Source: Burkholderiales bacterium (GTDB lineage Bacteria; Pseudomonadota; Gammaproteobacteria; Burkholderiales; SG8-41). From it: a stretch of DNA of 64,000 nt. The stretch lies in contig JAUXYA010000029.1 of assembly GCA_030684405.1 (NCBI GenBank), positions 83,147 to 147,146 on the forward strand. Reading direction: 5' to 3'. Shown here piece by piece: positions 57,176 to 58,290 of this stretch (position 1 is the first letter of the stretch; every line of letters starts with the position of its first letter). Both the position numbers and the translations under genes were made by a program. Under the pieces are notes generated by a model, which saw only the letters and a program-made list of their open reading frames with translations, was not told where the DNA came from and did not search any database.

Positions 57176-57751
57176 TCATTTCATCTTCTGCAGCACCTCA
57201 AGCAGCTCGTCGTTGGGCATGATGCCGCGTGGATCGTTGACGTTGGCGTAGCGGACGAAGCCCTCGCGGTCGATGATGAACCAGGCGCGTTTCGCACGCA
57301 GATAAGCGGCGATGCGTTTGCCATCCTTCGCCAGCGCGGGATCATCGTTGAGCACGCCGTAGGCGCGGGTCATTTCGCGGCGGGTGTCACTCAACAGCGG
57401 GAACTTCAGTCCGAGCTTGGTGGCGAACTCGGTATTGGCGGCGTTGAAATCGACACTGATGCCCAGGACCTGGGCATTGGCGGCCTCGAACTTGGGAAGA
57501 TCAAGCTGGAAGGCCACGACTTCGGTCGTTCACGTGTCGGTGAAGGCGGCGATGTAGAAGAACAGGACGACGTTCTTTTTGCCCAGATAATCCGCGAGTG
57601 CCACCGGCTTGCCGGTGGAGGAGTTCACGGAAAACGCAGGCGCCCGGTCGCCGGGCTTCGGCATCTGGGCCTGAGCGGACACGGCGAACAGAGTCGCGGC
57701 CCCGAGCAGGCTGGCGGTTATCCAGCGGTGCAGCAGTGACATTTTCGTCAT
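57176..57751 (-). CDS. AhpC/TSA-family peroxiredoxin, candidate selenoprotein (in-frame UGA at peroxidatic Cys)
   Basis: Signal peptide; FFYIAAFTDT-[TGA 57530-57532]-TTEVVAFQLDLPKFEA; both halves in same frame (57751-57517=234 nt); no other disruption. Confidence 0.88.
57482..57515 (-). promoter_or_regulatory. Candidate bacterial SECIS hairpin of the peroxiredoxin gene
   Basis: GGCCU-UCC-AGCUUG-AUCUUCC-CAAGUU-CG-AGGCC, starting 14 nt after UGA (hand-folded). Confidence 0.6.
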
Positions 57752-57771
57752 CGTGGTCCTCCGTTTGCGGG

Positions 57772-58290
57772 TTATTTGATGCGGGCGAGGTCGCGCACGT
57801 AATTGCGCAGCACGAGGCCGTCGAAATCGACATGGCCGATACCGCGCGCATTGATCAGGCCTTTTTTATCGACGATGACCGTGGACGGCACTCCGCGTAC
57901 GCCGAAACCGCGAGCGACGTTCATGTCCTGGTCGAGCAGTGCGGGCACGGTGTAGCCGCCCTTGGCGAATATCGGCTTGACCGCGGCTTCGCCGGTGCCG
58001 TCGATCGAGATGGTGATGACCTGGATCCCGTACTTCTTCAACTCGTCATGCGCCCTCTGCACGGAGGGCAGCTCGCGTACGCAGGAGCTTCACCACGAAG
58101 CCCAGAAGCGGATGATGGTGACCTTGTTGCGCAGGTCGACGTCGCTGCCGCTGCTGCCGTTGATGCCCGGGATCTTGAACGAGGGCATCGGCGTGGGCTG
58201 CGGCACCGGCACCAGGGTATCGGCCGCGACGGGCTGCGTCAGCATCAGGACGCCACCCAGCAGGGCGGCCAGAAGTGTGTTCAGTCGCAT
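57772..58290 (-). CDS. TlpA/thioredoxin-like protein, candidate selenoprotein with UxxC active site
   Basis: Signal peptide MRLNTLLAALLGGVLMLTQPVAA; VTIIRFWASW-[TGA 58090-58092]-SSCVRELPSVQRAHDELKKYGIQVITIS; both halves in same frame (58359-58062=297 nt). Confidence 0.88.
58052..58069 (-). promoter_or_regulatory. Candidate bacterial SECIS hairpin of the TlpA-like gene
   Basis: Perfect 6-bp stem GCCCUC-CGUGCA-GAGGGC starting 20 nt after UGA; loop contains GU. Confidence 0.65.

Follow-up and report, generated by a model that had tools for sequence, protein, structure and literature searches.

The 64,000-nucleotide stretch of a Burkholderiales bacterium genome analysed here (contig JAUXYA010000029.1 of assembly GCA_030684405.1, positions 83,147 to 147,146), termed the window, contains a tandem pair of genes that encode selenoproteins. 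One is a thioredoxin-fold protein of the TlpA/ResA type and the other is a peroxiredoxin (Prx) of the AhpC/TSA type. Both carry an in-frame UGA, the selenocysteine (Sec) codon, at the catalytic position, and in both genes the sequence flanking it on either side evolves under purifying selection. The pair likely represents an operon for an exported, peroxide-reducing relay made of two selenoproteins.

Gene organization

The TlpA-like gene (57772..58290, minus strand) encodes 172 amino acids with the active site WUSSC. It displays one in-frame TGA, at codon 67 (58090..58092, minus strand) in the context IIRFWASWUSSCVREL, and terminates at a TAA. The Prx gene (57176..57751, minus strand) starts 20 nucleotides (nt) past this stop and encodes 191 amino acids, with the active site TDTU and no cysteine. 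Its one in-frame TGA is codon 74 (57530..57532, minus strand; context FTDTUTTEVVAFQLDL), and a second TGA is its stop. The Pfam models AhpC-TSA, Redoxin and Thioredoxin_8 match the TlpA-like protein, and the Prx displays the AhpC-TSA fold (PF00578, 118 bits). No NCBIfam equivalog model matches either protein at cut-off. Signal peptides were called by eye, with no predictor used, from a hydrophobic stretch followed by an AxA-like site, and both proteins are predicted to be exported to the periplasm. A first-pass annotation had described two co-directional minus-strand genes at these positions, about 20 nt apart, each with a signal peptide and with UGA exactly at the catalytic thiol; the present analysis agrees on all of these points.

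Evidence for selenocysteine at both catalytic positions

Loci were collected by whole-genome searches and by scans with peptide patterns that omit the catalytic residue; the search expression accepted cysteine equally. UGA is found at both catalytic positions in all 98 loci that span the two genes, a set that includes duplicates between collections and holds 60 distinct TlpA sequences. The UxxC motif is present in 60/60 of these, and the catalytic codon is UGA in 69/69 distinct Prx sequences of the clade. The two UGAs are separated by 539 to 624 nt (73 loci measured). Within the bacterial family, 43 of 74 genomes have a close homologue of the Prx, with exactly one in-frame TGA per copy. In both genes the rate of nonsynonymous substitution (dN) is well below the synonymous rate (dS), upstream as well as downstream of the UGA.

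SelA, SelB, tRNA-Sec (SelC) and SelD are all encoded in the genome (3.74 Mb, 99% complete), and both catalytic UGAs are predicted to be decoded as Sec by them. SelB is present in 67 of the 74 family genomes. Three of the 43 genomes that carry the Prx (G019, G022 and G060) are without a SelB match at the threshold used, and two of these are incomplete assemblies. The SelD gene of the genome (C21:4962-5891) has an in-frame TGA as well, and SelD itself is probably a selenoprotein.

Predicted SECIS elements

A selenocysteine insertion sequence (SECIS) is predicted right after each UGA. Published criteria for bacterial elements are a stem of 4-16 bp, a loop of 3-9 nt with G in the first two positions, a spacing of 16-37 nt and a minimum free energy of -7.5 or lower (PMC13188914). 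The predicted element of the TlpA-like gene (58051..58070, minus strand; GCCCUC-CGUGCA-GAGGGC) has a 6-bp stem and the loop CGUGCA, located 26 nt past the UGA. The isolated stem has an energy of -11.6 kcal/mol (z = -3.2), and the element is within the published limits in every respect. It is formed in 45/45 distinct sequences, with compensatory changes from C-G to U-A in 14 and from U-A to G-C in one. Synonymous-site identity is 0.96 to 1.0 over codons +9 to +12, versus ∼0.5 in the rest of the gene. The arginine codon within this conserved segment is AGG, which comprises 5.5% of the arginine codons of the window.

The element predicted in the Prx gene (57482..57515, minus strand) displays a two-part stem, GGCCU/AGGCC and AGCUUG/CAAGUU, with the apical loop AUCUUCC 28 nt past the UGA. 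The proportion of paired cells is 91%, and three pairs have both sides changed. The isolated stem has an energy of -13.4 kcal/mol (z = -2.8). Over the first 17 codons of the Prx gene, synonymous change amounts to 0 to 0.24, versus 0.31 to 0.53 in the remainder. Stem, spacing, energy and covariation are within the published ranges; the apical loop has no early G. An Rfam scan of the whole window gave zero matches.

Distribution and co-inheritance

Carriers of the pair are mainly metagenome-assembled genomes (MAGs) of Betaproteobacteria, but also include two Candidatus Entotheonella chromosomes and one Tectomicrobia MAG (Candidatus Tectimicrobiota). The pair is present in 12 of 300 genomes of an order-level sample, with TGA in all. 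In an even sample across the phylum the genome studied here is the sole carrier, with no other at E ≤ 1e-30. Some MAG labels, e.g., Bordetella parapertussis and Rhizobiaceae, appear to be wrong (nine loci); the contigs under these doubtful labels carry close relatives of the present Betaproteobacteria family.

Thirteen additional Prx loci were found without an upstream UxxC gene, and the ones inspected are contig ends. In six loci the TlpA-like gene had seemed to be absent. In five of these it is present, but read-through parsing of open reading frames had merged it with the Prx gene; the remaining locus lies at a contig end. A search for a third gene conserved beside the pair gave none beyond lineage synteny. 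The gene trees of the TlpA-like protein and the Prx are concordant (distance correlation r = 0.90, 64 loci), and therefore the pair is co-inherited. A sister clade of Sec-containing Prx (42 loci) has no UxxC neighbour by motif search, and exported Sec-Prx therefore do not in general adjoin such a gene. Members of this sister clade (FYIFAFTGGUTKQMQ) are found on many metagenome contigs and are exported where the N-terminus was read.

The peroxiredoxin and its probable partner

The closest fold matches of the Prx are Bcp4, Prx1 and the 1-Cys AhpE (Foldseek). The catalytic Thr, Sec and Arg are conserved, and the Pro of the PxxxTxxC/U motif is Ile, Val or Thr in nearly all Sec members. The mature protein is without any other cysteine in 67 of 69 distinct sequences and thus does not have the resolving cysteine of a 2-Cys peroxiredoxin. 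As there is usually no resolving thiol, an external reductant would be needed, and the Prx is predicted to be a one-Sec peroxidase that depends on one.

Four true cysteine homologues of the Prx were seen (P0026, P0030, P0031 and P0034). These have Pro seven residues before the catalytic cysteine, and the KRSWF-type Arg segment is lost. In protein collections the Prx mostly appears as a 113-residue fragment that begins after the UGA, as in nr entries, or, in IMG translations, with Sec rendered as Trp (P0003-P0025 and similar). This Prx family is widespread in environmental Betaproteobacteria and is systematically truncated or mistranslated in databases. The genome also has a second Sec-Prx gene (C14:62588-63037; MPFAFTGGUTNQ) with the canonical Pro and no obvious signal sequence; its product is apparently a cytoplasmic selenoprotein Prx.

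The TlpA-like protein has a thioredoxin fold, a CxxC-type motif and predicted export, as is characteristic of the TlpA/ResA class. Its closest folds in the PDB are 3kcm, TlpA (1jfu) and ResA, and a Geobacter thioredoxin is also matched. The sole cysteine in every sequence is the second redox residue of the UxxC motif. One DsbD-family protein, with a DsbD-like domain order, is found in the genome. At the loci examined for neighbours, the pair had no linked transporter gene.

A proposed selenium relay and its alternatives

In the envelope of Caulobacter crescentus, electrons flow from ScsB to TlpA and on to the peroxiredoxin PprX in a cysteine-based pathway (Cho et al., 2012, as described in PMC5403849). 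Because this route is known, the same electron flow is proposed here with selenium at both sites; and because a Prx devoid of cysteine needs an outside donor, its UxxC neighbour is the obvious reductant. The steps are drawn from the anatomy of the two proteins and from the Caulobacter pathway. After decoding of both UGAs with the aid of SelA, SelB, SelC, SelD and the SECIS elements, the two selenoproteins would be exported to the periplasm. The Prx selenolate would reduce H2O2 or an organic hydroperoxide and be converted to a selenenic acid. Reduction of the oxidized Prx would then fall to the UxxC site of its TlpA-like neighbour, by way of a Prx-Se-Se-TlpA intermediate, which the second redox residue of that site, a cysteine, would resolve. 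Electrons for reducing the resulting selenenylsulfide of the TlpA-like protein would come from cytoplasmic thioredoxin through a transporter in the membrane, for which the single DsbD is the most likely candidate. Transfer of electrons from the TlpA-like protein to the Prx is thus suggested by analogy.

A more specific form of this proposal is an obligate diselenide relay, in which the transient Prx-Se-Se-TlpA bond forms in an oxidizing periplasm, Sec is required jointly in both partners, and the change of Pro to Ile/Val in the Prx active site is an adaptation to Sec within this exported clade. This form is put forward tentatively, its chances being somewhat short of even.

Several observations weigh against a peroxide-reducing relay. 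In the Prx, Ile, Val or Thr stands where a Pro is usual, seven positions ahead of the catalytic residue, and given this replacement the site may differ from that of an ordinary peroxidase. The Prx SECIS loop does not have the consensus G in its first two positions (PMC13188914). DsbD is present in the genome, yet no evidence ties it to the pair. Finally, vertical inheritance of two linked genes would equally produce congruent trees.

The alternative that fares best is that both proteins are genuine exported selenoproteins but not donor and acceptor. The TlpA-like protein would serve another client, e.g., in cytochrome c or copper-site assembly or in sulfur or selenium chemistry, the Prx would receive its electrons from small thiols or a different protein, and the two would share an operon as a response to the same stress. 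TlpA/ResA relatives do act in cytochrome c and CuA maturation, and TlpA bound to ScoI or to cytochrome oxidase subunit II is among the PDB entries matched by fold. This reading is nevertheless unlikely, since the two genes are strictly paired in 98 loci and the search for neighbours gave no further conserved partner, the gene trees are congruent, a cysteine-free Prx requires an external donor and electrons are known to pass from TlpA to PprX in Caulobacter.

It is also conceivable that the pair senses peroxide or relays a peroxide signal, whereby the Prx hands its oxidation to the TlpA-like protein, which in turn oxidizes a client. Electron flow between peroxiredoxins and thioredoxins is established as an oxidant relay for other peroxiredoxins, and UxxC sites can be oxidized by Prx. 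The pair has no conserved neighbour that encodes a regulator or client, however, and signalling as the function is quite improbable.

An origin of the UGAs in gene decay by nonsense mutation, in sequencing error or in a code that reads UGA as Trp has a negligible probability: standard annotation does treat UGA as a stop and IMG translations place Trp there, but the UGA is invariably at the catalytic residue, dN is well below dS on its flanks, SECIS structures and SelABCD are present, and a UGA=Trp code is excluded because the Prx gene has UGA both as Sec and as its own stop. All three versions were rejected on these grounds. The first-pass annotation had considered two chance nonsense mutations at redox-active codons to be very unlikely, and this judgment is strengthened by the single TGA per copy in the 43 family genomes. 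Conservation of the pair had been set beforehand as a check, and the pair is found across the 98 loci, well beyond the source assembly; replacement of Cys by UGA occurs in many genomes and shows no decay.

It is an open question why bacteria retain Sec although homologues with cysteine are plentiful. The tandem pair allows this question to be put to two proteins, as Sec is kept in the proposed donor and acceptor over at least two phyla, and the rare cysteine homologues of the Prx are built-in comparisons. If the relay works as proposed, a selenium-based peroxide defence would be added to those of the bacterial envelope.

Expression signals and genomic surroundings

Shine-Dalgarno sequences (GGAGG), read directly, precede both the TlpA-like gene (58295..58299, minus strand) and the Prx gene (57758..57762, minus strand), the latter within the 20-nt gap. 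A promoter-like site, TTGCCC-16-TAGAAT (58332..58359, minus strand), is located ∼41 nt upstream of the first start codon and is a weak match to the consensus. Co-transcription of the pair is predicted from the short gap, this upstream site and the strict adjacency of the two genes. A strong hairpin (58394..58428, strand not set) is found between an upstream receptor gene and the pair; together with the promoter-like site, it sets the pair apart from that gene. Genes for Bug-type receptors (of the tripartite tricarboxylate transporter) surround the pair in the window at 53488-54564, 58432-59412 and 61369-62469. They represent lineage synteny and are not a component of the system.

Comparison with known systems

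The pair is probably the selenium counterpart of the ScsB-TlpA-PprX pathway of Caulobacter and probably fed by DsbD. In both, a periplasmic TlpA-like thioredoxin-fold protein serves as donor to an exported peroxiredoxin, as known for Caulobacter and as proposed here. The Caulobacter proteins are cysteine-based and fed by ScsB, whereas the present pair has Sec at both catalytic sites and no linked transporter gene, in a genome that has DsbD. The likeness drawn here is one of pathway arrangement.

Sec-Prx with a TxxU motif and UxxC thioredoxin-like selenoproteins are listed families (PMC13188914), in keeping with the first-pass view that both classes are individually known. The Prx resembles the Eubacterium acidaminophilum type (Table 1 of PMC13188914) in its AhpC/TSA fold and in having Sec in place of the peroxidatic cysteine in TxxU. 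It differs in that it is exported, usually has no other cysteine, has Ile/Val/Thr for the Pro of PxxxTxxU and is strictly paired with a UxxC gene. Similarly, the TlpA-like protein shares a TlpA/ResA-like fold and Sec as the first residue of the motif with the thioredoxin-like, thiol-disulfide isomerase-like and redoxin selenoproteins of the UxxC type (cd02966, PF08534; same table); unlike these, it belongs to an obligate two-gene unit with a Sec-Prx.

A Sec reductant for a Sec enzyme is known from Clostridium sp. OhILAs, where selenoprotein Grx regenerates selenoprotein MsrA (Kim et al., 2011, cited in PMC13188914); the enzymes there are Grx and MsrA and not an exported TlpA-Prx pair. Operons of Prx with a SelW-like gene and of a Prx-like with an AhpD-like gene have been reported (PMC13188914), and ocean metagenomes contain neighbouring selenoprotein pairs that include Prx (PMC2398784). 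In these, as here, a Sec-Prx adjoins a second small redox selenoprotein, the nearest case being a single read with Prx beside a UxxC Prx-like 2 (PMC2398784). They have other partner families, are known from few reads and include no described exported TlpA pair.

The first-pass annotation regarded the exported tandem as new, and this holds in part. An exported TlpA-Prx Sec pair is not reported in the literature searched, most subscription journals being outside the search; a cysteine-based TlpA-to-Prx pathway, as described in PMC5403849, and pairs that contain a Sec-Prx were already on record. What is already known is thus each selenoprotein class and the cysteine version of the pathway, and what is new is the obligate presence of Sec in both partners together with a cysteine-free Prx.
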